A stretch of 64,000 bases of DNA from Clostridia bacterium (GTDB lineage Bacteria > Bacillota > Clostridia > Oscillospirales > CAG-272), in contig JAFVTS010000004.1 in the NCBI GenBank assembly GCA_017503105.1, positions 23,352 through 87,351 on the forward strand. Direction: 5' to 3'. This document shows, in pieces, positions 32,276-58,116 of the stretch. The notes beneath the pieces were generated by a model that saw nothing but the letters and a program-made list of their open reading frames with translations, was not told the origin of the DNA and searched no databases. Made by a program: the position numbers and the translations under genes. Numbering within the stretch: the stretch's first letter is position 1; each line of letters begins with the position of its first letter.

Positions 32276-34291
32276 TTAAAATATAAAATTCACGCAAGAC
32301 GCAAGAAGTATCCCGACCGCCGTTGGGATCAAAACGGCAAGCAGGGTCAGAAACGCCGAGCCCGTTTCGCGCTTTACCGTCATTATCGTTGTCGCGCACG
32401 GCCAATGGAAGAGAGTGAATATTGAGGCGCAGACCGCAGTTTTTACACCCCAAGCGTTTGCTGAAAGGATTTCCGCCGCCGTGCCCGTGCCTCCGTAAAG
32501 CGAAAGCGCTATCGGCAGTACGGTCTCGTTTGCGGGAAGCCCCAGAACAAACGCCGTGAGCATAACTCCGTCAAGTCCCATAAAACGCCCTATCGGATCA
32601 AGGGCACTGACTATCGCGTCCGTCGGATGCACACCTAATATATAAGTATTTGATAAAAGCCATATGACCACCCCTGCGGGCAAGGATACGGCAGCCGCCC
32701 TGAGAAAGATCTTGAGCGTTTTGTCGCGGAACGAGCGCTTGATTATTTGCATAAAGGCGGGGCGCCTGTAAGGAGGCAGCTCGAGGGTGAACAGACCCGC
32801 TTTTTCCTTTTTGAAGGCAAAGGCGATCACCCGCCCTACTCCGAGCGATACCGCAAACGAGAGGACGATGAGTAAAAGCATAGCAAGCGCACCTTCAGTA
32901 TAAAACGAGAGAAACGATGCGCATATCACCGTCAGCATCGGGAATCTGCCGTTGCAGGGAATAAAAGCGTTCGTGAGCACGGCAACGAGCCGCTCGCGCT
33001 TCGTTTCTATTATTCTCGCTCCCGTGACTCCGACAGCGTTGCACCCAAGCCCCATACACGCGGTAAGTGCCCCTTTTCCGCAAGAGCCGCAGGCAGAAAG
33101 CGGTCGGTCAAGATTATAGGCGATACGCGGCAAATATCCCGAATCCTCAAGTATCGCGAAGAAGGGGAAAAATATTGCCATCGGCGGAAGCATCACCGCC
33201 GTGACGGTGAAGAGAGTGCCGAGAGCGCCGTCGCATATAAGACTTACGGGGGCGGGCGGCGTTCCGATAGCCAAAATTCCCATTCTGATATAGGCGTTCA
33301 AGCGGTCGAGAAGGTATTCAAGCGCCTGCGACGGATACGCCGCAAGCTTCACAGTTATAAACAGTACTATCCCGAGAAAAACGAGCATAGCGGGAAAAGC
33401 AAGCACGCGACCCGTGAGTATTCTGTCGGCAAGCCCCAAGACGCGCGGACGCGCCTGTTTTTTCACCGCGTTTTCGGAAACGCGCTTGGCAAAAAGGAAG
33501 ACTGCCTCGGATACCTCTTCCGAAACGTCCTCGGAATCTATCCCGAGCTCGCCAAGCCGAACGAGCTCTTTCTCTATTACCGTCCCGAGCGCCCGTTCTT
33601 CTTCGCGCGGCACGGAAAAGTGCCCGCAAAGCTCACGGAAAGACGAGCTGTCGCCCGAGAGCGCCCTTATGGCTGTCATACGCAAAACGTTCGGGGGCGT
33701 GTCAAGTTTTCCAAGCGATTTTCCAATAGTACTGACGCTTTTCTCTATCTCTTCTCCGTATTTCAGCAGATGCGCGCGAGGCGGCATTTTTGCCGCCTCG
33801 TCAACGGCGCGCAAAAGCGAGGCAAGAGAGGATTTTTTTCTTGCATTGACCCTTACGACGGGTGCTGCAAGCAAATCGGACAGCCGCTTTACGTCAGCTT
33901 GCCTTCCCGTTTTTTCGGCGCTTTCGCAAAAGTTTAAAGCTACGACCGCTCTTTCCGACATTTCAAGTGCCGAAATAATAAAACTCATATTGGAAAGAAG
34001 TCTCGACTCATCGCACACTACAACGAGAACGTCCGAGTCCGAAAGCAGAAGAGAAGAAAAGGCTATTTCCTCTTCCTCCGATTCCGGGCAAAGAGAATAC
34101 GTGCCGGGCAAGTCGGTAACGGTATATTCACGCCCTTCAAACGAAAAATCTCCTACCGATACCTCAACGGTCTTGCCCGACCAATTACCCGTGTGAGCCG
34201 ACGCACCCGTCAAGGTATTAAAAAGCGTACTCTTCCCTACGTTCGGCACACCCGTAAGAGTAAATTTTAAGCTTTCATTTTCTCTTGCCAA
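32276..34291 (-). CDS. feoB: Ferrous iron transport protein B, divergent type
   Basis: FeoB is a membrane protein with an N-terminal GTPase that drives Fe(II) uptake. The 671-residue protein has the G1 motif GVPNVGKS (residues 14-21) and G3 DLPG. The G4 region (normally NxxD) reads NFCESA. The membrane half has paired Gate regions with PPMAIFFPFFAILEDSGYLPR, GCNAVGVTGARI and the variant FIPCNGRFP instead of FIPCGAKIP. It therefore differs from the second FeoB (46649-49093) and may have different metal or nucleotide properties. It lies 12 bp after feoA on the same strand. Confidence 0.9.
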   Translation of the reverse strand: MARENESLKFTLTGVPNVGKSTLFNTLTGASAHTGNWSGKTVEVSVGDFSFEGREYTVTDLPGTYSLCPESEEEEIAFSSLLLSDSDVLVVVCDESRLLSNMSFIISALEMSERAVVALNFCESAEKTGRQADVKRLSDLLAAPVVRVNARKKSSLASLLRAVDEAAKMPPRAHLLKYGEEIEKSVSTIGKSLGKLDTPPNVLRMTAIRALSGDSSSFRELCGHFSVPREEERALGTVIEKELVRLGELGIDSEDVSEEVSEAVFLFAKRVSENAVKKQARPRVLGLADRILTGRVLAFPAMLVFLGIVLFITVKLAAYPSQALEYLLDRLNAYIRMGILAIGTPPAPVSLICDGALGTLFTVTAVMLPPMAIFFPFFAILEDSGYLPRIAYNLDRPLSACGSCGKGALTACMGLGCNAVGVTGARIIETKRERLVAVLTNAFIPCNGRFPMLTVICASFLSFYTEGALAMLLLIVLSFAVSLGVGRVIAFAFKKEKAGLFTLELPPYRRPAFMQIIKRSFRDKTLKIFLRAAAVSLPAGVVIWLLSNTYILGVHPTDAIVSALDPIGRFMGLDGVMLTAFVLGLPANETVLPIALSLYGGTGTAAEILSANAWGVKTAVCASIFTLFHWPCATTIMTVKRETGSAFLTLLAVLIPTAVGILLASCVNFIF

Positions 34292-34303: not shown

Positions 34304-34552
34304 CTAAATCACGCAGTAAATTTTTTCAGCATCCGCCCCTCGGATAGCAAGCACCCTGTCACCGACGAGATAAGCCGACGGGTCGCCGAAGGGGGCCTTC
34401 CCGAGGCAGGAGATCTCAGCGCCCGCACTCATTCCGAGCGCGGAAAGCCTCGTGCGCTGTCTTGGAGGCATATCGACGCTTTCGATGAACGCCGATTCTC
34501 CGACAGGGAGCGCACGCAGGCAAAGATGCCTTGACTTTTCACTTTTTTCCAT
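34304..34552 (-). CDS. feoA: Ferrous iron transport protein A
   Basis: FeoA is a small SH3-like cytoplasmic partner of FeoB. The 82-residue protein (start chosen at 34552, with AAGGA upstream) has the FeoA core: LRALPVGESAFIESV, RLSALGMSAGAEISCL and YLVGDRVLAIRGADAEKIYC. The frame is open further upstream, but there it covers the promoter and a palindrome, so the longer form is unlikely. It is the first gene of a feoA-feoB operon; a TAGTATT-n4-AATACTA palindrome lies 98 bp before the start. Confidence 0.9.
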   Translation of the reverse strand: MEKSEKSRHLCLRALPVGESAFIESVDMPPRQRTRLSALGMSAGAEISCLGKAPFGDPSAYLVGDRVLAIRGADAEKIYCVI

Positions 34553-46432: not shown

Positions 46433-46618
46433 TCATTCCGTCTTTACGTTATTCTGCGTAGCGCACGAGCCGTGGCATTTGCCCGCCATAGCGCACCCCG
46501 CGCAAGAGGACTTCCCTGCTTTTTTAGATTTTACAAGCGAGTACACGAGTCCGAAGACGAGCCCGAGGACAGCGATAAAAACGATTATTGACGGTAAATT
46601 AGTTATAAACCATTCCAT
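46433..46618 (-). CDS. FeoB-associated Cys-rich membrane protein
   Basis: This 61-residue protein has one N-terminal transmembrane helix (about residues 8-30) followed by a cytoplasmic Cys-rich tail (SSCAGCAMAGKCHGSC). It matches the small FeoB-associated Cys-rich family that is encoded after feoB in many anaerobes and may bind iron or act as a FeoC-like accessory. The start has GGAGG just upstream. It follows feoB by 30 bp on the same strand, completing a feoA-feoB-cysteine-rich operon. Confidence 0.88.
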   Translation of the reverse strand: MEWFITNLPSIIVFIAVLGLVFGLVYSLVKSKKAGKSSCAGCAMAGKCHGSCATQNNVKTE

Positions 46619-46648: not shown

Positions 46649-49093
46649 TTACCTTGAAAGCACCTTGGAATCAAGCTTCGTTGCTTCCTTATAAGGTCTG
46701 AAGAGCATATAGCCAACGAAGGCTATTATTCCGAGAGAAATAAGCGTGCCGATGACGGGACCCGCCGTAAGCGTGCCGTATTCAAGAGCTAAGAAGAAGC
46801 TTCCTATCTGATAGATGCAGAAGGACGTGGCGTACGCGAGAGCGCACTGATAACCGATAGCAAAGAGCGTCCATCTTCCGCTGTTCATCTCACGCCTTAT
46901 AGCTCCCATCGTCGCAAAGCACGGAGCGCAAAGAAGGTTGAAAACGAGGAAGGAGAAGCCTGCGAGCTTCGTCATATCTATAAACTCAAGAACGCTGAGC
47001 ACCGCGACGACCTCTTCCTTTGCCACAAGGCCCATAACGGTCGCGACCGCTGTTTCAAGTCCGCCGAAGCCGAGAGGAATGAATATCCATCCGATAGCCG
47101 CACCGATGCCGCCGAGAATACTGTCGGTAAGAACCATTTCGGGATCAAAAACGTATCTGCCGTTCACGAATCCGAAGTGAGATGCAAGCCAGATGACGAT
47201 AGTGGAAAGAAGAATGACCGTGCCCGCCTTCTTGATGAAGGACCAACCGCGCTCCCAAGTAGCTCTCAAAACACCCGAGGCCGTCGGCATATGGTATTCA
47301 GGCAGCTCCATAACGAAGGGAGAGGGCTCCCCCGCGAAGCGCTTCGTTTTCTTTAACATAATTCCCGAAACGACGACCGCCGCCATACCGATGAAATAAG
47401 CGGAGGGGGCGACCCACCAGGCACCGCCGAAGAGCGAGCCTGCGATAAGAGCGATGATAGGAATTTTTGCGCCGCACGGAATAAACGACGTCGTCATTAT
47501 AGTCATACGCCTGTCGCGCTCGTTTTCGATAGTACGGGATGCCATAATACCGGGAACGCTGCAACCGACGCCGATAAGCATAGGAATAAAGGATTTACCC
47601 GAAAGACCGAGCTTTCTGAATATCCTGTCCATAACGAAGGCGATACGCGACATATAACCGCACGCCTCAAGGAATGCAAGGAAGAGGAAGAGCACGAGTA
47701 TCTGCGGAACGAAGCCGAGCACGGCACCGACTCCCGCGATTATTCCGTCAACGACGAGTCCGCGCATCCACTCCCAGCATCCGATCGCCCGAAGACCCGC
47801 ATCCGCAGCAACGCCGACACCAGGGATCCAAGCTCCGAAGTCCTCGTTCTTCGGCGCGTTTTCCATAACCGCTTCGTACCACACGTCAAGAGTAACCGTG
47901 CTTCCGTCTTCACCGACCTCGGCGGTTTTTATCTGTGCTCCGTAAGAGCCGAGCGCCTCGCCGAGAGCGCCCGAATCGTTTGCCTCGACGGCATCCCTGA
48001 TCTCGGACGCGCCCTTTATTTCACCAAGCTTTTCCGCTTCGTCGACGTAGTAAGCGACCTTGTCCATAACGCCGTTTTCCTCAACGTAAGACTCAACTGC
48101 GGCATCGTATTTATCTCTGCCGATGCCGAAGAAATACCATCCGTCACCGAAAAGGCCGTCGTTCGTGAAGTCCGTGACCCAGGTCCCGACCGTTGTGACC
48201 GAGATAAAATACACGATGAACATAATAGCCGCGAAGATGGGAAGCGCGGCAAAGCGGTTGGTAAGTACCTTGTCTATTTTTTCAGACGGGGTAAGACCGC
48301 CTGCGTTTTTCTTTTTATAAACGCCCTTCAAAAGGTTTGCGACGTAGTTGTATCTTTCGTTGGTTATGATGCTCTCCGCGTCGTCGTCAAGCTCGCGCTC
48401 TGCGGAAACTATATCCTCTTCGATGTGGGAGAGAAGATCCTTCGGAAGACTAAATTCCTCAAGCAGCTTTTCATCACGCTCAAAGATCTTTATCGCGTAC
48501 CATCTCTGTTGCTCGGACGGGAGATTGTGCAAGCACGCCTCCTCAATGTGGGCAAGCGCGTGCTCCACGGTGCCCGAAAAGGCGTGGTGCGGTGACTTTT
48601 TCCCCTTCGACGCCGTGGCTATCGCGGCATCTGCCGCCTCTGCGATGCCCGTTCCCTTCAGGGCGGAGATCTCAACGACGGGGCTGCCGAGAGCCTTTGA
48701 AAGCCCCTCTATGTCTATCTTATCTCCCCTTTTGCGAACGACGTCCATCATATTGATGGCAACGACGACGGGAATTCCGAGCTCGGAGAGCTGAGTCGTA
48801 AGATAGAGGTTTCTCTCAAGATTCGTTCCGTCAACGAGGTTGAGTATTACGTCAGGACGCTCACCGACGAGATAATTTCTTGAAACTACCTCTTCAAGAG
48901 TATAGGGAGAGAGAGAATAAATACCCGGAAGGTCAACGACCGAAACGTCGTCGTTATCCTTGAGCTTTCCCTCTTTCTTCTCGACGGTAACGCCGGGCCA
49001 ATTTCCAACGTACTGATTAGAGCCTGTCAGCGCATTGAAAAGCGTAGTCTTACCGCTGTTCGGATTGCCCGCAAGGGCTATTGTGATTTTCAT
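46649..49093 (-). CDS. feoB: Ferrous iron transport protein B, canonical type
   Basis: The 814-residue protein has the GTPase motifs G1 GNPNSGKT (residues 9-16), G3 DLPG (near residue 57) and G4 NMMD (near 118). The membrane half has canonical Gate motifs, including GCSVPGIMASR and SFIPCGAKIP. Between the first and second transmembrane helices lies an insertion of about 110 residues (about 325-440), rich in charged helices and predicted to face outside. That insertion is absent from the first FeoB (32276-34291). It is separated from feoA by 103 bp with a GTTAG-type palindrome. Confidence 0.93.
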   Translation of the reverse strand: MKITIALAGNPNSGKTTLFNALTGSNQYVGNWPGVTVEKKEGKLKDNDDVSVVDLPGIYSLSPYTLEEVVSRNYLVGERPDVILNLVDGTNLERNLYLTTQLSELGIPVVVAINMMDVVRKRGDKIDIEGLSKALGSPVVEISALKGTGIAEAADAAIATASKGKKSPHHAFSGTVEHALAHIEEACLHNLPSEQQRWYAIKIFERDEKLLEEFSLPKDLLSHIEEDIVSAERELDDDAESIITNERYNYVANLLKGVYKKKNAGGLTPSEKIDKVLTNRFAALPIFAAIMFIVYFISVTTVGTWVTDFTNDGLFGDGWYFFGIGRDKYDAAVESYVEENGVMDKVAYYVDEAEKLGEIKGASEIRDAVEANDSGALGEALGSYGAQIKTAEVGEDGSTVTLDVWYEAVMENAPKNEDFGAWIPGVGVAADAGLRAIGCWEWMRGLVVDGIIAGVGAVLGFVPQILVLFLFLAFLEACGYMSRIAFVMDRIFRKLGLSGKSFIPMLIGVGCSVPGIMASRTIENERDRRMTIMTTSFIPCGAKIPIIALIAGSLFGGAWWVAPSAYFIGMAAVVVSGIMLKKTKRFAGEPSPFVMELPEYHMPTASGVLRATWERGWSFIKKAGTVILLSTIVIWLASHFGFVNGRYVFDPEMVLTDSILGGIGAAIGWIFIPLGFGGLETAVATVMGLVAKEEVVAVLSVLEFIDMTKLAGFSFLVFNLLCAPCFATMGAIRREMNSGRWTLFAIGYQCALAYATSFCIYQIGSFFLALEYGTLTAGPVIGTLISLGIIAFVGYMLFRPYKEATKLDSKVLSR

Positions 49094-49142: not shown

Positions 49143-49160
49143 GGTTAGCGGACGCTAACC
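49143..49160. promoter_or_regulatory. DtxR/IdeR-like box between feoA and feoB (second locus)
   Basis: GGTTAGCGGACGCTAACC is a perfect 8-2-8 palindrome between feoA and feoB, matching the TTAGC-GCTAA core of the boxes at 49487-49502 and 49601-49616. It may add separate iron control to feoB or work as a local hairpin. Confidence 0.6.
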
Positions 49161-49196
49161 GCAGGACTGAAATATAGTCCGCGAAAAAACACGGAC

Positions 49197-49421
49197 TCAC
49201 ATTTCCACTTCAATAAGAGCAGCGTCCGCCTTCCTTATTGAAAGCTCATAACCGCGCACGGTGAGCTCTATCGGGTCTCCGAGAGGCGCAACCTTTCTGA
49301 CCGTTATCTCAACGCCCTTGGTTATTCCCATATCCATTATTCTGCGTTTGAGAGCTCCCTCGCCGCCGAGCTTAGTGACTCTCACGGTCTTGCCGACCTT
49401 GACTTCCTTCAGAGTAGACAT
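49197..49421 (-). CDS. feoA: Ferrous iron transport protein A
   Basis: The 74-residue protein (start chosen at 49421, with AAAGGA about 10 bp upstream) has the FeoA SH3-like fold: VGKTVRVTKLGGEGALKRRI, MDMGITKGVEITVRKVAPL and YELSIRKADAALIEVE. Longer frames begin near the operator and lack better Shine-Dalgarno sequences. It is the first gene of the second feo operon. The promoter at 49511-49539 is overlapped just downstream by a GTTAGCC-GGCTAAC box. It is more compact than the first FeoA. Confidence 0.9.
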   Translation of the reverse strand: MSTLKEVKVGKTVRVTKLGGEGALKRRIMDMGITKGVEITVRKVAPLGDPIELTVRGYELSIRKADAALIEVEM

Positions 49422-49486
49422 CAAAAAAGGGTCCTTTCTATCGTACTCGCGCATCTTCTCTTTTGCGAGCATCGAGTTTTCGACGA

Positions 49487-49502
49487 GTTAGCCTCGGCTA
49501 AC
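49487..49502. promoter_or_regulatory. DtxR/IdeR-like operator at the feoA start region
   Basis: GTTAGCCTCGGCTAAC is a perfect 7-2-7 palindrome that begins nine bases downstream of the -10 box (TATTAT, 49511-49516), over the expected transcription start. A repressor bound here would block initiation. Confidence 0.72.
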
Positions 49503-49510
49503 CCATAATT

Positions 49511-49539
49511 ATAATACAAAAAATCGACACAAAAGTCAA
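49511..49539 (-). promoter_or_regulatory. Promoter of the second feo operon
   Basis: On the - strand TTGACT (49534-49539) and TATTAT (49511-49516) are spaced by 17 bp, directly upstream of a DtxR-like box. Confidence 0.75.
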
Positions 49540-49600
49540 TACCTTTTTTCAAAAAAATTCATATTTTTTCAAACTTTGGATATTTTGCTCATAAAGCCGA

Positions 49601-49616
49601 GTTAGCAAAGACTAAC
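49601..49616. promoter_or_regulatory. Third DtxR/IdeR-like box upstream of the feo promoter
   Basis: GTTAGCAAAGACTAAC has GTTAG/CTAAC arms with a looser centre, 62 bp upstream of the feoA -35. It may be a second operator for cooperative binding. Confidence 0.55.
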
Positions 49617-49760
49617 TTTGTTGATTTTTCTTACAGCTTACGTATCATAGGCAGGGATACCGTATTTCGCCCTTATAGCGCGTATGATCGAACGCGTCTT
49701 TTGCGATAGATATAATTACGGCGAAAAGAACGAAGAAAAAACATATATCACTCGCAAGTA

Positions 49761-49789
49761 TTGACTTTTTAATCTCGCGGTGCTAAAAT
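49761..49789 (+). promoter_or_regulatory. Promoter of the YgjV-like gene
   Basis: TTGACT and extended -10 TGC-TAAAAT are spaced by 17 bp; the ATG is 35 bp downstream. Confidence 0.75.
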
Positions 49790-49824
49790 AGGATAGCAAT
49801 TTTTGATTAAATGGAGCTTTTCTC

Positions 49825-50349
49825 ATGCTGTTATTCGTGCTATCAATGATCTTCGGTGCACTCGGCATCACGGCAAATATAATAATATATCAACAAAGAA
49901 CGGGAAAGAAGCTCCTCGTTTGGAAGCTGACGTCAGACGTATTTTGGGTCTTGCATTACGTATTCCTTGGAGGTTACAGCGGTGCAGGTGCAAGTATGGT
50001 CGGTGTCGTCAGAGAATCAATATTCTTAAACCGCGGCAAGAAGTGGGCTGACAGTAAATTATGGCTTCTTCTGTTCGTCGCGCTCTCCGTCGCCTCTGCC
50101 GCCGTTACGTGGAACGGATATATGAGCCTTTTGCCAACGATAGCGTCAGTCACGTCGGTTTTTGCCTTCTGGCGCGCAAATCCGAAACTCACGCGAATCC
50201 TTGCATACGTGATCGCAGGATGTATGATGACGTATAACGTCTTCGTGCTCTCTTATATGGGTATCGTAAGCGAAGCCTTCGTGCTCATCTCCACCACGGT
50301 CGGCATAATCAGAGTTGCGGTGCTTGAAAAAAAGAATAAAAAAGCTTAG
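49825..50349 (+). CDS. YgjV-family inner membrane protein
   Basis: The 174-residue protein is a chain of hydrophobic helices (about five or six) with the YgjV-family pattern: LGITANIIIYQQRTGKKLL, then the Trp-rich LTSDVFWVLHYVFLGGYSGA, then GVVRESIFLNR. Members are conserved but functionally uncharacterised. GGAG lies 8 bp before the ATG. It is a single-gene unit with its own promoter and terminator, divergent from the second feo operon. A role in metal handling is possible by location but not supported by the sequence. Confidence 0.78.
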   Translation: MLLFVLSMIFGALGITANIIIYQQRTGKKLLVWKLTSDVFWVLHYVFLGGYSGAGASMVGVVRESIFLNRGKKWADSKLWLLLFVALSVASAAVTWNGYMSLLPTIASVTSVFAFWRANPKLTRILAYVIAGCMMTYNVFVLSYMGIVSEAFVLISTTVGIIRVAVLEKKNKKA

Positions 50350-50355
50350 CGGTTC

Positions 50356-50379
50356 TCCCTCCTTTTTCCGAAGGAGGGA
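50356..50379 (+). terminator. Intrinsic terminator after the YgjV-like gene
   Basis: A 9-bp stem (50356-50364 with 50371-50379) is followed by TTTTT. Confidence 0.85.
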
Positions 50380-50406
50380 TTTTTACATATAATTTTTATT
50401 AAATCA

Positions 50407-50435
50407 TTGACTTTTTGCGCGTAATATGCGATAAT
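50407..50435 (+). promoter_or_regulatory. Promoter of the GH78 gene
   Basis: TTGACT and GATAAT are spaced by 17 bp, 38 bp upstream of the ATG. Confidence 0.68.
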
Positions 50436-50473
50436 AAATATACCGTAAAACATTTAGAAAAGAGGACATACTT

Positions 50474-52693
50474 ATGCTTGAACAGAACGCACTTTTCAAA
50501 AACGCAAGATGGATAGGACACACGAGAATTGCGGGTCGAAAAGTTGGAATTCTGACCCCCACTCTCCGCGCCATCAAGAATTTCATGCTTGATTCCGTGC
50601 CGAAAACCGCAACCGTCAGAGTTTCGGGACTTGGGTCTTTTGTGCTTTATATAAACGGAAATAGAGTGGGCGACGAGGTGCTCTCTCCCGCCTTTACCGA
50701 TTACCAAAAGACCGTGCTCTTCTGTGAATACGACGTGACGGAGCTTTTGAAGGCGGGCAAAAACACCGTAGCAATTGAGGTAGGCGCAGGCTTCTTTAAT
50801 CAGGCGACGGATGACGTCTGGAGCTTCGCGCACGCGAATTGGCGCGACGGCGAAAAGTTTATACTTACCTTAAGTGCCGACGGACAAGAGGTTCTTGTCA
50901 GTGACAAAACGTGGCTTGTAGATACAAACGGACCGAGATATCACTCTCAGATACGTCAGGGCGAGTACTACGACGCAACGCGCGAGGACGGTTGGCTTTC
51001 GGAAGGCTTTACCCCCGTCGGTTGGCATATACCAACGCTCGTTTCCCCTCCCGGCGGTGTTATGAGGCGTCAGGAGCTTCCGCCGATAAGAATTTGCGAG
51101 GTGCTGAAGCCCGTTTCAAGAAAGATTGGCAAAAACGGAGTTATCTTCAATTTTGGCAAAAACATCGCGGGCGTTTGCCGCGTTAAAATGAAGGCTCCGA
51201 AGGGAACCGAAATGAAGATAAACTACGGTGAGCTTCTCACCGAGTCGGGTGACGAGGTCTCAAAGTACGGAATCACTATGCACGTAAAGTGCGAAGAACA
51301 GTACACCGATAAATACACCTTCCGAGGCGAGGGCGTCGAGGAATTCAAGCCTGAGTTCGTCTATCACGGCTTCCAATTCGCCGAGGTCGTGGGCGCTGCT
51401 CCCGAGCTTGACGAGATAGAGGCGCTCTTCATCCACACCGACCTTCGTGACAAGGGCTCCTTCAACTCCTCGGACGATATGTACAATTGGGTGGCAAACG
51501 CCTCTATCACCGCATTTCTTTCAAACTTCCACGGCTTCTCGGAGGACTGCCCCCACAGAGAGAAGAACGGCTGGACGGGTGACGCTGTCATCTCCGCCCA
51601 TCACGCGGTATACCGCTACGATATGAAGGAAGCGTACAAGAAATGGCTCCGCGATATTGCCGAAACTCAGCTTCAAACGGGTCAGCTCTCTTGTATCGCT
51701 CCGACGGCTGGTTGGGGCTACGTTTGGGGCTGCGGTCCTGCTTGGGACTGCGCGCTCTTCGCCCTTCCCGAGGCTCTTTACAGAGAAACGGGCGACACGG
51801 AGTGCTTCGACCTCATCTTTGACACGGCAGTCAAATACCTTGAATACGCAAAGGACTACGAGGATGAGGGAGGACTCGTCTGCTTCGGACTTGCCGATTG
51901 GTGTCCGCCTCGTGACGATAACGGAGAGAAGTATCCCGTCGCGTCCAATGAATTTTCCGATTCCTGTCATTACATTATGATGCTCCGCATAATGAAGCTT
52001 ATGTGCGACCTTAAGGGTGAACCTTGTCGCGGTGAGCTTTACGAAAAGCGTGCCGAGCGCGTTCTTTCTTCCGTAAGAGAGAAGTACGTAAAGGGCGATG
52101 ACGTTGACAACTCGACGGCTTCTGCGAGAGCTATGGCGATATACTACGGAATAGTGGAGGGAGCGGCTGCAGACGCCCTTGCCGACAAGCTTGCCGAGCA
52201 GATAAAGGCGGCGGGCTATACCACTCTTACGGGTATTCTCGGAATGAAGGCACTCTTCTCCGCCCTTTCCGACCACGGACACATTGATACCGTAAACAAG
52301 TTCGTCCACTGCGATGACTACCCCTCCTACGGATATATGAGAAAGAACGGTGCGACCGCGCTTTGGGAGGCGTGGGATACGAAGACCGCATCAAGAAATC
52401 ACCATATGTACTCCGAGGTGCTGAATTGGCTCTACCGCTACGTCGGCGGCATCAGAAACGACGGTATCGCCTACGACAAATGTACGATAGCTCCTTATAT
52501 TTTCGATACCGAGTCAAGCGCATCGACCTCTACCGAAACGCCTCGCGGTACGCTTTCCGTTGATTGGAAGTATTCGGGTGGAAAATTCACCGCTACGGTC
52601 ACCGTTCCCGAGGGCACGAAAGCGAAAATAAAGGTGCTTGGCACCGAAAAAGAGCTCGCGTGCGGCACTCAAACCGTTGAAATTAACGCTTAA
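50474..52693 (+). CDS. Glycoside hydrolase family 78 alpha-L-rhamnosidase
   Basis: GH78 enzymes release terminal alpha-L-rhamnose from plant glycosides and pectins. The 739-residue protein has N-terminal beta domains, including a carbohydrate-binding-like segment (LYINGNRVGDEVLSPAFTDY). The (alpha/alpha)6 catalytic barrel has the GH78 signature EDCPHREKNGWTGDA, with acidic catalytic candidates, and LADWCPP. A C-terminal beta-sandwich has TPRGTLSVDW. No signal peptide, so it is likely cytoplasmic. AGAGGACAT lies before the ATG. It is followed by the DtxR-like gene without a shared operon, since that gene has its own promoter. Confidence 0.9.
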   Translation: MLEQNALFKNARWIGHTRIAGRKVGILTPTLRAIKNFMLDSVPKTATVRVSGLGSFVLYINGNRVGDEVLSPAFTDYQKTVLFCEYDVTELLKAGKNTVAIEVGAGFFNQATDDVWSFAHANWRDGEKFILTLSADGQEVLVSDKTWLVDTNGPRYHSQIRQGEYYDATREDGWLSEGFTPVGWHIPTLVSPPGGVMRRQELPPIRICEVLKPVSRKIGKNGVIFNFGKNIAGVCRVKMKAPKGTEMKINYGELLTESGDEVSKYGITMHVKCEEQYTDKYTFRGEGVEEFKPEFVYHGFQFAEVVGAAPELDEIEALFIHTDLRDKGSFNSSDDMYNWVANASITAFLSNFHGFSEDCPHREKNGWTGDAVISAHHAVYRYDMKEAYKKWLRDIAETQLQTGQLSCIAPTAGWGYVWGCGPAWDCALFALPEALYRETGDTECFDLIFDTAVKYLEYAKDYEDEGGLVCFGLADWCPPRDDNGEKYPVASNEFSDSCHYIMMLRIMKLMCDLKGEPCRGELYEKRAERVLSSVREKYVKGDDVDNSTASARAMAIYYGIVEGAAADALADKLAEQIKAAGYTTLTGILGMKALFSALSDHGHIDTVNKFVHCDDYPSYGYMRKNGATALWEAWDTKTASRNHHMYSEVLNWLYRYVGGIRNDGIAYDKCTIAPYIFDTESSASTSTETPRGTLSVDWKYSGGKFTATVTVPEGTKAKIKVLGTEKELACGTQTVEINA

Positions 52694-52706
52694 ATATTTT
52701 ACCCTC

Positions 52707-52735
52707 TTGATTTTTTCGGGATTTTGTGGTATTCT
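52707..52735 (+). promoter_or_regulatory. Promoter of the DtxR-like regulator gene
   Basis: TTGATT and TATTCT are spaced by 17 bp with extended -10 (TGG). Confidence 0.55.
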
Positions 52736-52768
52736 ATTATAATAAAGGAAGGGAGGTAACACCGCAAA

Positions 52769-53140
52769 ATGGCACTTCAGGAATCGGGCGAGATGTATCT
52801 TGAGACCATTCTCGTTCTTTCAAAGAAAAATACGAGCGTCCGCGCTATCGACGTGGGCGAATATATGGGATTTTCAAAGCCCAGCGTGAGCCGTGCTCTC
52901 GGTCTTCTCAAAAAAGGCGGTTACGTGACCTCCGATCCGGACGGATATCTTTTCCTGACCGAGTCGGGCAAGGACGTCGCCGTGAAGATATACGAAAGGC
53001 ATAAGCTTCTGACGACCTTTTTGACCGAGCTCGGCGTGAGCGAAAACACAGCTTCTATGGATGCGTGCAAGATAGAGCACCACCTTTCGGATGAATCCTT
53101 TGAAGCTATCAAGCGCCACGCGCAAGAGTATATGAAATAA
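52769..53140 (+). CDS. DtxR-family iron-dependent repressor
   Basis: The 123-residue protein has a winged helix (AIDVGEYMGFSKPSVSRALGLL) and a dimerisation/metal domain with YERHKLL and DACKIEHHLSD. Aligning by motif, Met9, Cys100, Glu103 and His104 match the primary-site ligands Met10, Cys102, Glu105 and His106 of DtxR. MntR has Asp8 and Glu99 at the first two positions, so iron rather than manganese is expected. The C-terminal SH3-like domain of DtxR is missing. GGGAGG lies upstream of the ATG. Likely targets are the GTTAG-CTAAC boxes of the second feo locus, 3 kb away. Confidence 0.88.
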   Translation: MALQESGEMYLETILVLSKKNTSVRAIDVGEYMGFSKPSVSRALGLLKKGGYVTSDPDGYLFLTESGKDVAVKIYERHKLLTTFLTELGVSENTASMDACKIEHHLSDESFEAIKRHAQEYMK

Positions 53141-53144
53141 CACG

Positions 53145-53192
53145 AAAGCCGTTTTGCGTGGTGGGACATTATCCGTCACGCACTGCGGCTTT
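53145..53192 (+). terminator. Intrinsic terminator after the DtxR-like gene
   Basis: Two stem segments (AAAGCCG/CGGCTTT and TGCGTG/CACGCA) around a 3-base internal loop are followed by TTTT. Confidence 0.72.
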
Positions 53193-53242
53193 TTGCATAT
53201 TATTTTAACACCGATATCTTCGGCGTTAAGAAAGGAGCACCT

Positions 53243-54175
53243 ATGGCGGAAATAGATTACAAAACGATAAACGAGAAGGCTTCCGACCCCACCTTAATGA
53301 TAGACCGTGCGGAGCGCGAATATCACGCTCACATAAAAGAGCTTGCCGCACGTATAAACGGAAACGAAAGAATAAAGATAGTTCTTCTTGCGGGTCCCTC
53401 GGGCTCGGGTAAAACGACGAGCGCAAATCTGCTTGCGGACGCGCTTCGTGAGCTTGGGGATGAAGCTCTCGTGGTTTCGCTCGACGATTTTTACAAGGAC
53501 GCCTCCGACCCAAGCTACCCAAGGCTTGACGGCGGCGAGCGCGACTACGAGTGTCCCGAAGCACTTCACCTTGACGAGCTTACCAAAACGCTTGAAAGAG
53601 TCGCGGAGGGAAAATCCTTCGAGATACCGAAATACGATTTCAAATGTGCAGCGCGCACGGATACGAAAACGCACTCGCCTATAGGTCACGGCTGCGTTAT
53701 AATTGAAGGGCTCCACGCGCTGAGCCCCAAAATATCCGATTCATTGCCAAGTGAGAGGCTTTTGAAGCTTTTCGTCAGCGTTTCGACAAACATTAACGAC
53801 GGTGACGATAGGATACTCTCGGGAAGAAAGCTCCGCTTCGTCAGGCGAATGGTGCGCGACAGCATCTATCGCGCGGCAGGTGCGGAGAGAACTCTTGAAA
53901 TGTGGCAAAACGTCCTGCACGCCGAGGATATTTACCTTTATCCGTACAAGGATACGGCAGACGTCGCCTTTGACACTTTCCACGTCTTTGAGCCCTGCGT
54001 TATGGCATCCTTTGCAAAAAAGCTCATCACGGAGGAGCTTGCAAAAAAGAACGAATACGCCGCAGTCGTGTTGGCTGCTCTTTCAAAGATCCGAGAGATA
54101 GACGCGCATCTTGTGCCTGAAAATTCTTTGATAAAAGAATTTATCCCGGGCGGAAAATACGAGAATTTATATTAA
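53243..54175 (+). CDS. Uridine kinase-like P-loop phosphotransferase
   Basis: The 310-residue protein has a Walker A motif (LLAGPSGSGKTT, near residue 47), the uridine-kinase/phosphoribulokinase-type segment VVSLDDFYK and the GGERDYECPEAL and FEIPKYDF stretches. The lid-region RRMVRD is followed by a hydrophobic C-terminal part. Longer homologues have about 550 residues with a TGS-like N-terminal domain; this one lacks it. It phosphorylates a nucleoside or sugar, most likely uridine/cytidine. AGGAG lies before the ATG. It is 27 bp upstream of the first heparinase-type lyase gene, so a carbohydrate kinase role is also possible. Confidence 0.82.
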   Translation: MAEIDYKTINEKASDPTLMIDRAEREYHAHIKELAARINGNERIKIVLLAGPSGSGKTTSANLLADALRELGDEALVVSLDDFYKDASDPSYPRLDGGERDYECPEALHLDELTKTLERVAEGKSFEIPKYDFKCAARTDTKTHSPIGHGCVIIEGLHALSPKISDSLPSERLLKLFVSVSTNINDGDDRILSGRKLRFVRRMVRDSIYRAAGAERTLEMWQNVLHAEDIYLYPYKDTADVAFDTFHVFEPCVMASFAKKLITEELAKKNEYAAVVLAALSKIREIDAHLVPENSLIKEFIPGGKYENLY

Positions 54176-54202
54176 ATTTAATCTATTAAGGAGAGAAAAA
54201 CG

Positions 54203-56134
54203 ATGGAAACCAAACTTACGGGTCCGATTTTGACAGAGGAGGAGCTTTTCGACTTGCTCGACGGGAGCGTTCCTGCATTTGCTGAAGCGAAAAAGGCAGC
54301 TAAAGAGGGGAATCTTACGGATGCGAAGCACATCTTCGCCGAGCAAGTAAGACACGGAGGTTATTCCGAGCTGTATTTTGAAAACCGCGAGAGAATGAAG
54401 GCTTATGCACTCGTTACCAACGAGGAAAAGCTCGCGGCCTCGTGCGAAAAAATACTTGATCACGAGCTTACGAGCTGCGGTTTTTCGCACAAATTCGGCA
54501 AAGAAGTTGATTGGTTCTCAAATCCCACATACAACAAATATTCCGAATGGACCTGGCAGCTCTCGCGCCATCACGACATCTTTCTGCTCGCTCAGGCATA
54601 CGAGCGCTTCGGTGATGAGAAATACGCTGAGTGTGCGGTCGAGCTTCTCTCAAGCTGGTGGCATCAGGCTATCCGTCCCGAAGCGGACGTTGGCGACGGG
54701 GCGACGCTTTGCTGGCGTACGATAGAATGCGGAAACAGAATGACCGTGTGGCCGAATATCGTCTTCCCTATTCTTAAATCCCCTGCCGCAACGGACGACT
54801 TTATATGTGAGCTTGCCCGCTCGCTCTACGAGCACGGTCCAAGACTCATTCGCTCAAAAACGCACAACAATTGGCGCAACATAGAGCTTGGCGGTCTTGC
54901 GAGCCTCTCCGTGCTCTTCCCATTCTTCGAGGAGAGCAAGGCTTGGCGCGAGCACACAGCAAACGGCACAGTCGAGCACCTCGTGCGTCAGATACATCCC
55001 GACGGCTTCCAATTTGAACTCTCCACGACGTATCACGGCGTTGTTCTCGCAAGTGCAACTCACGCAGCAAAGATGCTCGCCCTTGCCGGCTACAAAATGC
55101 CCGACGAATTTTACAGGGTCGCAACTTCGATGTACGAGATGTACGTAAAGCTCCGCCAATCGGGAGATATTATCCCCAACATTAACGACGGAAGATCTGC
55201 GCATATCAGATCCTACCTTCCGCGCGACGGATTTTGCGCTGACAGCGAGCTTGTGAAGTGGGCACTTGACGGCTGCCCCGCCGACAGGGCTCCCAAGATG
55301 GACAGCCTTTCGTTCTTCGAATACGCGGGGCTTGCGATTTTACGCGATTCCTTTGCGGACGCAAAATGCTCCGTGTTCTTCGACGCGGGCAAGATCGGCA
55401 GATCGCACCAGCACGAGGACAAGCTGAACGTGCTCGTTTACCACAACGGCAAGGAGCTTCTCACCGAGGGGCACAACTATTCTTACGACACGTCCGATAT
55501 AAGAAAATACATACTTTCCACCTTCTCCCACAACACCGTAACGGTTGACGGAGAGGGGCAAAACAGGAAAAAGGGCTTCAAGTGGGACGACGCTATGCTC
55601 ACCGTAAAAGAGCCCGTCAGGACGTTCACCTCGGACACGCTTGATTTTGCTGCGGGAAAATACGACGAGGCGTACGGCGAGGAGCAGCAAATAACCGACG
55701 TCGTTCACACCCGAGAAGTCGCGCTCGTCAAGAAGCCTGCGGCAGGTGACGGTACGGTAATAGTTATCGACACTCTTTCGGGTGATACCGAGCACGGCTA
55801 CGAGGCTATTTGGCACGTCGATACCGACGAGCTCGCGCTTGACGGAAACGTCGCGCTCGGCGACAGCTTCTCGTTAGCGTTCGGTGCTGACGTCGGCGAG
55901 CTCAGAATAGTTAAGGGGCAGACCGAGCCTACGGTGCAAGGCTTCACGGCAAGAAGCACGGTTCAGGGCGATTACGACGCTATTCCCACCGTCCTTAACA
56001 AGATCACGGCAAAGTGTGCGACGATGCTCACGGTCATCTCCCTCGGCGCAAAGGTAAGATCTGCATCCCTTGACGGAAGAGCCGTCAAAGTCACTTACGA
56101 AAACGGCGAGCACGAGGAAGTAAAGCTTCCGTAA
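54203..56134 (+). CDS. Heparinase II/III-family polysaccharide lyase (paralogue 1)
   Basis: Members of this lyase superfamily cleave acidic polysaccharides by beta-elimination. The 643-residue protein has an N-terminal (alpha/alpha) toroid with FGKEVDWFSNPTYNKYSEWTW and the conserved KTHNNWRNIELGG region (near residue 217), a Tyr-His pair (TTYHG) and a C-terminal beta-sandwich beginning FDAGKIGRSHQHEDKLNVLVY with GHNYSYDTSDIRKY. No signal peptide is visible, so it probably acts on oligosaccharides inside the cell. GGAG is close before the ATG. It is followed by a close paralogue. Substrate unknown. Confidence 0.87.
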   Translation: METKLTGPILTEEELFDLLDGSVPAFAEAKKAAKEGNLTDAKHIFAEQVRHGGYSELYFENRERMKAYALVTNEEKLAASCEKILDHELTSCGFSHKFGKEVDWFSNPTYNKYSEWTWQLSRHHDIFLLAQAYERFGDEKYAECAVELLSSWWHQAIRPEADVGDGATLCWRTIECGNRMTVWPNIVFPILKSPAATDDFICELARSLYEHGPRLIRSKTHNNWRNIELGGLASLSVLFPFFEESKAWREHTANGTVEHLVRQIHPDGFQFELSTTYHGVVLASATHAAKMLALAGYKMPDEFYRVATSMYEMYVKLRQSGDIIPNINDGRSAHIRSYLPRDGFCADSELVKWALDGCPADRAPKMDSLSFFEYAGLAILRDSFADAKCSVFFDAGKIGRSHQHEDKLNVLVYHNGKELLTEGHNYSYDTSDIRKYILSTFSHNTVTVDGEGQNRKKGFKWDDAMLTVKEPVRTFTSDTLDFAAGKYDEAYGEEQQITDVVHTREVALVKKPAAGDGTVIVIDTLSGDTEHGYEAIWHVDTDELALDGNVALGDSFSLAFGADVGELRIVKGQTEPTVQGFTARSTVQGDYDAIPTVLNKITAKCATMLTVISLGAKVRSASLDGRAVKVTYENGEHEEVKLP

Positions 56135-56143
56135 ACCCGTACC

Positions 56144-56161
56144 CGTGTTGAATTTCAACAC
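56144..56161. other. Palindrome between the two lyase genes
   Basis: GTGTTGAATTTCAACAC is a perfect 8-1-8 inverted repeat (56145-56161) ten bases after the first lyase stop. It includes a variant of the dispersed ACCCGTGTTAAATTT word. It lacks a T-run, so it is not a typical terminator and may be an mRNA-processing hairpin or an operator. Confidence 0.45.
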
Positions 56162-56184
56162 TCATTTTAAAAAGAGGAAAGAAA

Positions 56185-58116
56185 ATGGAAAATAAATATA
56201 TCGGTCCCGTCTTAAAGGAGTCTGAACTTTACAGCTTGCTCGACGAGAGTATTTCCGCTCTAAAAAAAGTAAAGGAAACCGCCCTTGGAGGAGATCTCAC
56301 TTCGGCGAGGCGTCTGTTCGCAGACCACATCAGAAACGGCGGGTATTCAGAGCTTTTCTTCAAAAACAGAGATACGGTTTCGACTAAAACGTTTCCGAGC
56401 TATGACGAAAAAAAGCTCACAGCCGAAGCCGAACGCGTGCTCTCTCACGAGCTTATGAGCGTCGGTGTTCCACATAAATTCGGTAAGGACGTCGATTGGT
56501 TCTATAATGCGACCTACAACGGATATCGCGAGTGGACCTGGCAGCTCTCACGCCATTACGATTTAAGAATACTCGCAGCAGCTTATGAAAAATTCGGAGA
56601 TGAAAAATATGCCGAGGGCTTAGTAGAGCTTCTTTCAAGCTGGATAAAGCAGGCTCTTCGTCCTGAATATAACGAGAGTGACAACGCGACGCTTTGCTGG
56701 CGAACTATCGAGTGCGGTATCAGAATGTCCGTCTGGCCGAGCATCTTCTTCCCAATCCTTAAATCTGCGGCGGTAACGGACGAATTTATCGTAGCATTTT
56801 ACTCATCCCTTTACGAGCACGGAGAGCGTCTTGTACGCTCAAAAACTCAAAATAATTGGCGCAACATCGAGCTTTCGGGATTTGCAAGCCTTGCCGTTCT
56901 CTTCGGCGTTTTTAAAAAAAGCAAAGCTTGGCGCGAGTATACCGCAAAGGGCATTTACGACCATCTTATGCGCCAAATACACCCCGACGGATTCCAATTT
57001 GAGCTTTCTTCAGCTTATCATCACGTCGTTTTGCGAGAATCCCTCCGCGGAGCGGCTGTACTTCAGCTTTCGGGTTACAAAATGCCCGATGATTTTTACA
57101 AGACGATTACGGATATGTTTGAGATGTACGTAAAGCTTATGCAATCAGGCGGACTCATTCCCGACATCAACGACGGAAGACTCGCAAACGTAAAATCGTT
57201 TATGCCGCTTGACGGAGAAATTGAAGAAACTCCGCTCATAAAATGGGCAAAGTCGGGATGCCCCGAGGAAGGCAGTCCCAAAGAAAACACTCTTCACGTC
57301 TTTGAAAACGCAGGTCTTGTCACAATGCGCGACTCTTGGTATAAAACTAAGACCTCCATCTTCTTTGATGCAGGCAAGCTTGGCAGATCGCATCAGCACG
57401 AGGATAAGCTGAATCTCCTCCTATATAAAGACGGAAAGGAAATTCTTACGGAGGGGCATAACTACGCTTACGACTCCTCGGATATGAGAAAATACGTTAT
57501 CTCCTCTTTCTCTCATAACACCGTTATCGTTGACGGCAAGGGACAAAACAGAAGGAGGACTTACCTTTGGGACGACTCTATGCTTAACACTAAAGAGGAC
57601 ATAAAAGCCTTCGCCTCCGAGAAACTCGATTACGCATCGGGTATTTACAACGAAGCCTACGGCACCGAGGGCGAGATAACCGACGTTTCACACAAGCGAG
57701 AGGTCGTTTTCCTCAAGAAAACAAAAGTTGGCTCTGCGGCGGTTATAGTTATAGACACCATCACAGCAGACTGCGAACACACCTATGAAGCCTTATGGCA
57801 TCTTGACGTTTCGGAAGTCAAGCTCTTTGATAAATGCGCTTTTGCTGACGATATATCCATAGCCTTTTCACTAGGGAACGTTTCTTTAACGAAAGGTCAG
57901 ACCGAGCCGTTTGTGCAAGGCTTCGTTTGCGACAGCACCATTCAAGGCGATTACAGACCGATCCCGACACTTATAAACAGGATCGTTGGAAAGGACGCGA
58001 AGATTGTAACGGTCTTTTCCTTTGGACAAGAGCTTTCAAACGTGGAACTCAATTGCAAAAATGTAAACTTAAATTATCAAAGCGGTGAATGCGAAACGGT
58101 AGAGCTTCCCTTCTAA
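56185..58116 (+). CDS. Heparinase II/III-family polysaccharide lyase (paralogue 2)
   Basis: This 643-residue protein is the same length as the upstream paralogue and similar throughout. The core region reads KTQNNWRNIELSG, with Gln where the first paralogue has His (KTHNNWRN), and the Tyr-His pair is SAYHH. The GKLGRSHQHEDKLN and GHNYAYDSSDMRKY segments are intact. The Gln could change catalysis or specificity, so the two copies may act on different bonds. AGAGGAAAG lies before the ATG. It is followed by a terminator-like hairpin at 58141-58187. Confidence 0.87.
   Translation: MENKYIGPVLKESELYSLLDESISALKKVKETALGGDLTSARRLFADHIRNGGYSELFFKNRDTVSTKTFPSYDEKKLTAEAERVLSHELMSVGVPHKFGKDVDWFYNATYNGYREWTWQLSRHYDLRILAAAYEKFGDEKYAEGLVELLSSWIKQALRPEYNESDNATLCWRTIECGIRMSVWPSIFFPILKSAAVTDEFIVAFYSSLYEHGERLVRSKTQNNWRNIELSGFASLAVLFGVFKKSKAWREYTAKGIYDHLMRQIHPDGFQFELSSAYHHVVLRESLRGAAVLQLSGYKMPDDFYKTITDMFEMYVKLMQSGGLIPDINDGRLANVKSFMPLDGEIEETPLIKWAKSGCPEEGSPKENTLHVFENAGLVTMRDSWYKTKTSIFFDAGKLGRSHQHEDKLNLLLYKDGKEILTEGHNYAYDSSDMRKYVISSFSHNTVIVDGKGQNRRRTYLWDDSMLNTKEDIKAFASEKLDYASGIYNEAYGTEGEITDVSHKREVVFLKKTKVGSAAVIVIDTITADCEHTYEALWHLDVSEVKLFDKCAFADDISIAFSLGNVSLTKGQTEPFVQGFVCDSTIQGDYRPIPTLINRIVGKDAKIVTVFSFGQELSNVELNCKNVNLNYQSGECETVELPF

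Follow-up and report, generated by a model that had tools for sequence, protein, structure and literature searches.

The nearest experimental precedent for the system described here is YtgR at trpRBA in Chlamydia trachomatis, where an iron-dependent repressor has a site in an intercistronic region (PMC6504234, partial text). The present system lies in a stretch of 64,000 nucleotides, hereafter the window, from a Clostridia bacterium (GenBank assembly GCA_017503105.1, contig JAFVTS010000004.1, positions 23,352 to 87,351 of the forward strand). A feoA–feoB operon in the window carries palindromic boxes of the form GTTAG-n6-CTAAC, one of them between the two genes, and the gene for a short DtxR-family regulator lies 3.3 kb from this box-bearing operon. 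The trait of the YtgR system, an operator of DtxR-family type in an intercistronic region, is present here, with the regulator as its presumed binder. According to the same partial text the chlamydial site also represses an internal promoter, whereas the gap boxes considered here have no visible promoter. The Clostridia system differs further in that the operon is feo, in that a run of thymines (the T-tract) stands at a fixed distance from the box, and in that the arrangement is conserved over many families; it is known from sequence alone.

IdeR of Saccharopolyspora erythraea binds TTAGGNNNNCCTAA as a single dimer, and the 19-bp DtxR consensus is occupied by two dimers (PMC8464063, partial text). 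In our own reading of the letters, the 19-bp site would consist of two TTAG-n6-CTAA sites shifted by 5 bp. The boxes share the single-dimer TTAG-n6-CTAA geometry, and a one-dimer half site has been shown to bind IdeR (PMC8464063). Spacing and TTAG/CTAA agree with TTAGGNNNNCCTAA; the inner bases, at positions 5 and 10, are usually C and G rather than G and C, with some variation. A further difference is that each box probably accommodates one dimer, in contrast to the two of the 19-bp consensus, and the third protein domain is absent from the regulator.

At the RNA polymerase I terminator, T-rich sequence lies about 15 bp upstream of the site of a roadblock protein (Reb1, Nsi1 or TTF1); the protein halts the polymerase there, and an RNA hairpin brings about termination (PMC12366685, partial text). 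The resemblance is one of layout and not of homology, since that terminator is eukaryotic and constitutive and its hairpin lies further upstream. Bacterial roadblock repressors such as PurR, GalR, CcpA and CodY are alike in that a DNA-bound regulator halts elongating polymerase; the partial text of the review (PMC10310618) does not describe a hairpin and T-tract at a fixed distance ahead of the operator, and neither DtxR nor iron is mentioned in that review. DtxR of Corynebacterium diphtheriae has sites over the −10 element or downstream of the start, and roadblocking has been suggested for it; an intercistronic feo module is not described in the available part of that paper (PMC5784534).

The listings of open-access literature searches showed no paper on this regulon, and the control of iron in these Clostridia has apparently received little attention. 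We consider it rather probable that the DtxR-family regulator blocks initiation at feoA and also, as a roadblock joined to a terminator-like element in the feoA–feoB gap, gates feoB by control of elongation.

Boxes at the feo operon

The window contains three exact GTTAG-n6-CTAAC palindromes, at 49144–49159, 49487–49502 and 49601–49616. They are those of the original prediction, which had given the first box one extra base on each side (49143–49160). Among 600 first-order Markov sequences of 64 kb, exact boxes average 0.03 with a maximum of 2, and none of the 600 holds three. At one mismatch the three matches in the window are unremarkable, as 15 of 100 shuffles reach that number; the signal thus resides in exactness and clustering. 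The whole 2.6-Mb genome has four exact boxes, the three of the window and one on contig C36 (C36:3602), which agrees with the prediction of a local regulon; some relatives have up to 16.

The genes feoA (49197–49421, minus strand; PF04023, 78.5 bits) and feoB (46649–49093, minus strand; 814 residues; TIGR00437, 508.7 bits) are separated by 103 bp. The feoA start was picked by likeness to relatives, within an open frame that starts at 49472. Within the gap lies the first box, GTTAGCGGACGCTAAC (49144–49159), the proposed roadblock site, whose counterparts in relatives lie behind a T-tract and have no promoter. The middle box, GTTAGCCTCGGCTAAC (49487–49502), falls on the start point set by the promoter of feoA, TTGACT-17-TATTAT (49539–49511, minus strand; 10/12 matches), and begins 8 bp past the −10 hexamer. 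Both placements, directly past the feoA −10 and between feoA and feoB, had been described correctly. The distal box, GTTAGCAAAGACTAAC (49601–49616), is 114 bp from the promoter box; like the other two, it is an exact match assigned to neither strand. A distal box 96–109 bp from the next box recurs upstream of feoA in some relatives, and looping or control of a divergent gene would be possible functions.

In relatives the boxes fall into two classes. The first set analyzed comprises 91 distinct feoA–feoB loci, some of them of a second feo type in which boxes are mostly missing. Gaps were counted once per distinct sequence; the sequences are related by descent, and the statistics given throughout ignore kinship. 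When up to one mismatch is allowed, 74 of the 91 loci carry a box in the 200 bp ahead of feoA (exact in 63) and 44 carry one in the feoA–feoB gap (exact in 29); 43 loci have both, and one has the gap box only. Upstream boxes sit in the −35/−10 spacer or directly behind the −10 element. A sigma-70 score of at least 10/12 is found in 108 of 117 upstream regions versus none of 75 gap boxes, for which the maximum is 9. The upstream regions were favored by windows as much as 16 nt longer and by a choice among several boxes, of which the best was scored, but this is insufficient to account for so large a difference. The scores thus set the gap boxes apart from ordinary promoter operators. A role for the palindrome in RNA only was considered and rejected, given that some boxes are within the −35/−10 spacer. 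A search of Rfam gave a single chance match (E 0.3), far under the gathering score.

The gap module

The most constant companion of the gap box is the T-tract. The rules for the T-tract (at least 5 T in 6) and for the box (one mismatch allowed) were set after the first set had been viewed, and were kept unchanged for a second set picked by similarity of DtxR, in which 33 of 80 loci have FeoA and 37 of 80 an exact box. A T-tract precedes the gap box in 37 of 44 cases in the first set, where mononucleotide shuffles predict 9.5, and in 17 of 19 in the second, where 6.5 are expected; all 17 end 7–10 nt from the box. With the sets pooled, the T-tract ends 6–11 nt ahead of the gap box in 62 of 75 cases versus 10.0 expected from dinucleotide shuffles. 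The mirror arrangement, with the T-tract on the other side of the box, occurs in 8 of 75. Interquartile ranges are 7–9 for the distance from T-tract end to box, 38–52 from feoA to box and 22–43 from box to feoB. Gaps with a box are longer (median 89.5 nt) than those without (33 nt), and the gap boxes of the first set represent 15 families.

The composition ahead of the gap box is G-rich from −33 to −27 and C-rich from −22 to −19, with a T frequency of 0.72–0.91 from −15 to −11, a profile that would suit an intrinsic terminator. The module, clear in relatives, is only weakly represented in the window itself. A clear hairpin of eight pairs (49176–49197, minus strand) starts from the feoA stop codon, and the 61-nt stretch that includes the box folds with z −4.79. 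A weak T-rich tail, TATATTT (49170–49176, minus strand; read from the sequence), ends 10 bp ahead of the box.

A similar order is seen at promoters. Close box pairs number 59 in 134 feoA-upstream regions, with a spacing of exactly 34 bp in 26. Of the pairs spaced 33–35 bp, 30 have no intervening −10 hexamer, and in 28 of these a T-rich stretch (at least 4 in 6) ends 8–11 bp before the second box. In these pairs the frequency of T is 0.93 at spacer position 7, and the order of the gap is repeated as palindrome, T-tract and box, the first box being the palindrome. Located at +1, that first box would be transcribed and could itself serve as a hairpin.

The order of hairpin, T-tract, box and ribosome-binding site was also recognized by eye before other genes (loci L171, L178, L192:6958 and L195). 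T-tract boxes in 56 other contexts were listed, in both orientations, and several of these are second promoter boxes or chance matches. The stricter pattern TTTTT-N5-10-box occurs in 82 of 291 genomes from across the class, and a read-backwards control matches a minority of genomes too. Of 30 loci drawn from the 82 matching genomes, 17 hold FeoA, and in 11 the module is in the feoA–feoB gap; each of these 11 belongs to a genome from an order other than that of the window.

A DtxR-family protein as the likely binder

The regulator (52769–53140, plus strand; 123 residues) was correctly assigned to the DtxR family on first reading, with Met9, Cys100, Glu103 and His104 in place. It matches PF01325 (40.5 bits; cut-off 26) and PF02742 (58.7 bits; cut-off 27), the latter as the sole match in the genome. 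It ends at residue 123, and the third, C-terminal SH3-like domain of DtxR and IdeR is absent. Its scores are below the NCBIfam equivalog cut-offs both for MntR (93.7 of 153 and 62.9 of 138) and for DtxR (46.5 of 290). Among solved structures the regulator group is nearest MntR (1on2, 1.6e-21), and the best DtxR match is at 2.2e-18. Where relatives are named, they are mostly assemblies that carry the labels Clostridia, Oscillospiraceae, Ruminococcaceae or Lachnospiraceae, with one strain, Evtepia gabavorous, whose DtxR locus has neither a feo gene nor an exact box within 6 kb.

An alignment of 15 sequences, the window protein and 14 relatives, shows no change at Met9, Glu12, His78, Cys100, Glu103 or His104. 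In a wider set of 61 sequences the Met9 position is Asn or Asp in 12, and the Cys100 position is kept wherever it is covered, bar one remote sequence. Met9, Cys100, Glu103 and His104 fit the Met, Cys, Glu and His ligands of the primary site of DtxR and IdeR. With the numbering that we take to relate the matching ligand positions of MntR and DtxR, the alignment places Met9 and Cys100 at the positions of acidic MntR ligands. An MntR-like scaffold with two DtxR-type ligands, Met9 and Cys100, would be a fair description of the protein.

The geometry of the box, TTAG-n6-CTAA, is that of the experimentally bound single-dimer IdeR site, and the box is probably a single-dimer site of DtxR type. E. coli MntR sites have a similar geometry. 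The link drawn earlier to TTAGGTTAG-type sites holds for the half-site; the box is one TTAG-n6-CTAA dimer site and not the 19-bp site for two dimers.

Boxes and regulator tend to be absent together. In 147 genomes of the same order, of varying completeness, 400 exact boxes were found versus 123 for a read-backwards control, with at least one box in 126 genomes. DtxR is present in 129 of the 147, FeoA in 136 and a Fur-family protein in 126. DtxR is missing from 12 of the 21 box-less genomes versus 6 of the 126 box-bearing ones (Fisher p 2.8e-8); among the genomes that have FeoA, the figures are 4 of 12 versus 4 of 124 (p 0.002). Box absence shows no association with Fur absence among the 147 genomes (p 0.49). 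In many relatives dtxR adjoins feoA divergently, with boxes in between.

Beyond feo, boxes in relatives precede genes for the uptake of iron and other metals, an association that had been proposed as a check on the original prediction. The fourth box of the present genome, behind TTGACA-16-TATAAT, starts 48 bp ahead of the ATG of an 86-residue HMA-like protein with an MMCPMC motif (C36:3602–3907, box at promoter; L004/L200). Its HMA match of 20.3 bits is under the curated cut-off of 24.8, and it is likely to be an iron-repressed metal-binding protein. In 30 loci drawn from 102 genomes with an HMA match, the 200 bp ahead of the HMA-like gene contain an exact box in 11 cases and a box with one mismatch in a further 5. 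In locus L179 (G101, contig C7) a box stands 45 bp ahead of a NEAT/FIVAR surface protein; genes further downstream on the same strand include FecCD and ABC genes, possibly a haem uptake operon under the same box. ZIP-like proteins start 17, 40 and 203 bp past boxes in L198, L028 and L190, where they were assigned by likeness to a tested copy in L180. In box-rich relatives a box is 23 bp ahead of an ABC transporter and, at L182, 16 bp ahead of a DUF3793 protein with a flavodoxin nearby. DUF3793 proteins lie directly behind box pairs in L182, L191 and L194, and DUF3793 may be an iron-starvation protein.

The boxes on feoA promoters across the order, the divergent dtxR genes, the joint absence of box and DtxR and the metal-uptake targets all point to a short DtxR-family repressor of feoA–feoB, and this prediction is well supported. 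Of the earlier proposal that this protein represses feoA–feoB with iron, the repressor has thus gained comparative evidence; iron as the co-repressor is suggested by residue identity and by the target genes.

A variant operator deserves mention. The asymmetric GTTAGCnnnnGGTAAC occurs upstream of feoA in six same-genus genomes, in one constant orientation relative to feoA (L110 in G024, L115 in G044, L118 in G032, L119 in G021, L120 in G060 and L124 in G059). No covariation between recognition helix and box was found in the GTTAGCnnnnGGTAAC clade, in which the DtxR core SKPSVSRA is unaltered. In L101 (G068), GTTAGAnnnnTCTAAC boxes are found at two sites upstream of feoA, and the Met9 position of the regulator is Asp.

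Proposed mechanism and alternatives

When metal-loaded, most likely with Fe2+, the 123-residue DtxR dimer on 49487–49502 would cover the start of the feoA promoter and block initiation, a step strongly supported by the position of the box. A dimer on 49144–49159 would stand in the path of the polymerase at a set distance behind the hairpin and T-rich stretch; there it may hold the polymerase and aid termination before feoB. A drop in iron would release DtxR from the boxes and allow both initiation and read-through into feoB. We infer the occupation of the boxes by DtxR with iron from the evidence above; that the gap dimer halts polymerase together with the hairpin and T-tract is suggested by the spacing. 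Elongation control is the more likely function because the gap boxes lie at a fixed distance behind a T-tract, often with a hairpin.

Several observations weigh against this mechanism. In the first set 47 of the 91 loci have no gap box at up to one mismatch, so that the gap module is common, not universal. Hairpins anchored at the T-tract exceed shuffles (p ≤ 0.05) in a minority of cases (26 of 62), so that the hairpin is less constant than the T-tract, and the fold z is below −1.5 in 38 of 75. In the window itself the T-tract is weak, a terminator scan listed no terminator in the feoA–feoB gap, and the strict TTTTT-N5-10-box pattern has no match in the genome. A polymerase is halted about 15 bp ahead of a roadblock site. 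With a halt at this distance before the box, the transcript would end only a short way into the T-tract, which may be insufficient for release driven by the hairpin, and release may then need pushing or backtracking. At intrinsic terminators, moreover, a roadblock that prevents forward movement can reportedly hinder release, which would favor a stall over termination. The regulator scores closer to MntR than to DtxR models. Exact boxes occur in six genomes with no DtxR match; two of these, G095 and G105, hold 7 and 5 boxes at 97% completeness. Nine genomes have DtxR and no exact box, three of them (G024, G032 and G060) with GTTAGCnnnnGGTAAC instead.

The strongest alternative, in our view still an unlikely one, is that DtxR represses the feoA promoter only, and that a leaky terminator alone sets the ratio of feoA to feoB; the gap box would then be an uncoupled roadblock or would titrate DtxR. 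Leaky intercistronic terminators are common, and only some of the loci show a clear hairpin. An unrelated terminator is harder to reconcile with a near-constant distance from T-tract end to box (7–9) while the distances from feoA to box and from box to feoB vary, with the co-occurrence of T-tract and box, or with the recurrence of the same order in promoter box pairs.

It is improbable that the T-tracts and the 34-bp spacing serve DNA shape or contacts between DtxR dimers in place of termination. Box pairs spaced 34–35 bp do occur with a −10 hexamer replacing the T-tract in the spacer, and IdeR is known to read DNA shape (PMC8464063, partial text). In the gaps, however, the place of the first box is held by a GC hairpin and not by a DtxR site, and the layout is directional despite the symmetry of the box, as the scarcity of the mirror form indicates.

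Slightly less probable again is a different binder or metal, whereby a Fur-family protein would read the boxes or the regulator would prefer Mn2+ or Zn2+ over Fe2+. The genome has two Fur-family matches, the regulator fits MntR models better than DtxR models, and ZIP and HMA-like genes are among the targets. Against these points, 16 of 20 Fur-less genomes still have boxes (a count that leaves out one further such genome), and it is DtxR absence that accompanies box absence. The box has the geometry of a DtxR-family dimer, and Met9 and Cys100 replace acidic ligands of MntR. Fur as the box binder was judged unlikely, as box absence does not track its absence.

Finally, it is very improbable that the gap box serves as operator for a feoB promoter of its own, with independent control of initiation, one possible sense of the independent control of feoB suggested in the original prediction. 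An operator directly upstream of feoB would usually have this meaning, and the internal promoter served by the chlamydial YtgR site offers a parallel (PMC6504234, partial text). The proposal was rejected on the sigma-70 scores, which are at most 9/12 at all 75 gap boxes across the group, and the window gap has no promoter-like site of at least 9/12 on the feoB strand.

The preferred mechanism, initiation block at feoA with roadblock-assisted termination before feoB, leads to a broader and more tentative suggestion, to which we give slightly less than even weight: Clostridia may use a portable repressor-gated terminator, composed of a palindrome or GC hairpin, a T-tract, 7–10 bp and a DtxR operator. 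If so, metal-loaded DtxR would make a weak intrinsic terminator effective and shut the downstream gene of an operon by elongation control. The target would be feoB, joined in some relatives by HMA-like genes and genes for ABC transporters. The first operator would, at some promoters, double as a DNA box and a transcribed RNA hairpin. Such an element would amount to a metal-switched bacterial equivalent of the RNA polymerase I terminator. Repressor and intrinsic terminator would form one device if the layout works as proposed, and a simple in vitro system would become available for a polymerase that meets a roadblock inside a T-tract. The boxes predict a regulon base by base in mostly uncultured species, and assign feo, HMA-like, ZIP, NEAT and DUF3793 genes to a single likely regulator.

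Neighboring genes

The operon continues beyond feoB with a FeoB-associated Cys-rich membrane protein of 61 residues (46433–46618, minus strand; PF12669, 35.7 bits), giving the order feoA, feoB, Cys-rich protein. A second feoAB of the other type is encoded on the minus strand of the window, with a FeoB of 671 residues at 32276–34291 and FeoA at about 34313–34519. The whole-window scan found no box, exact or with one mismatch, at this second locus (about 32.3–34.6 kb). In relatives, too, most feo loci of the second type are without boxes, L125 and L134 being exceptions. The better of the two Fur-family matches in the genome (29507–29815, minus strand) lies about 3 kb from this box-less feoAB.

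Between feoA and dtxR are a YgjV-like gene and a rhamnosidase-like gene. The region 50474–58116 (plus strand) encodes an alpha-L-rhamnosidase-like protein and two tandem proteins of 643 residues, of which the first has a heparin-lyase-like match and the second was assigned by eye. Amid these genes, which are likely to function in polysaccharide use, lie dtxR and a uridine-kinase-like gene.

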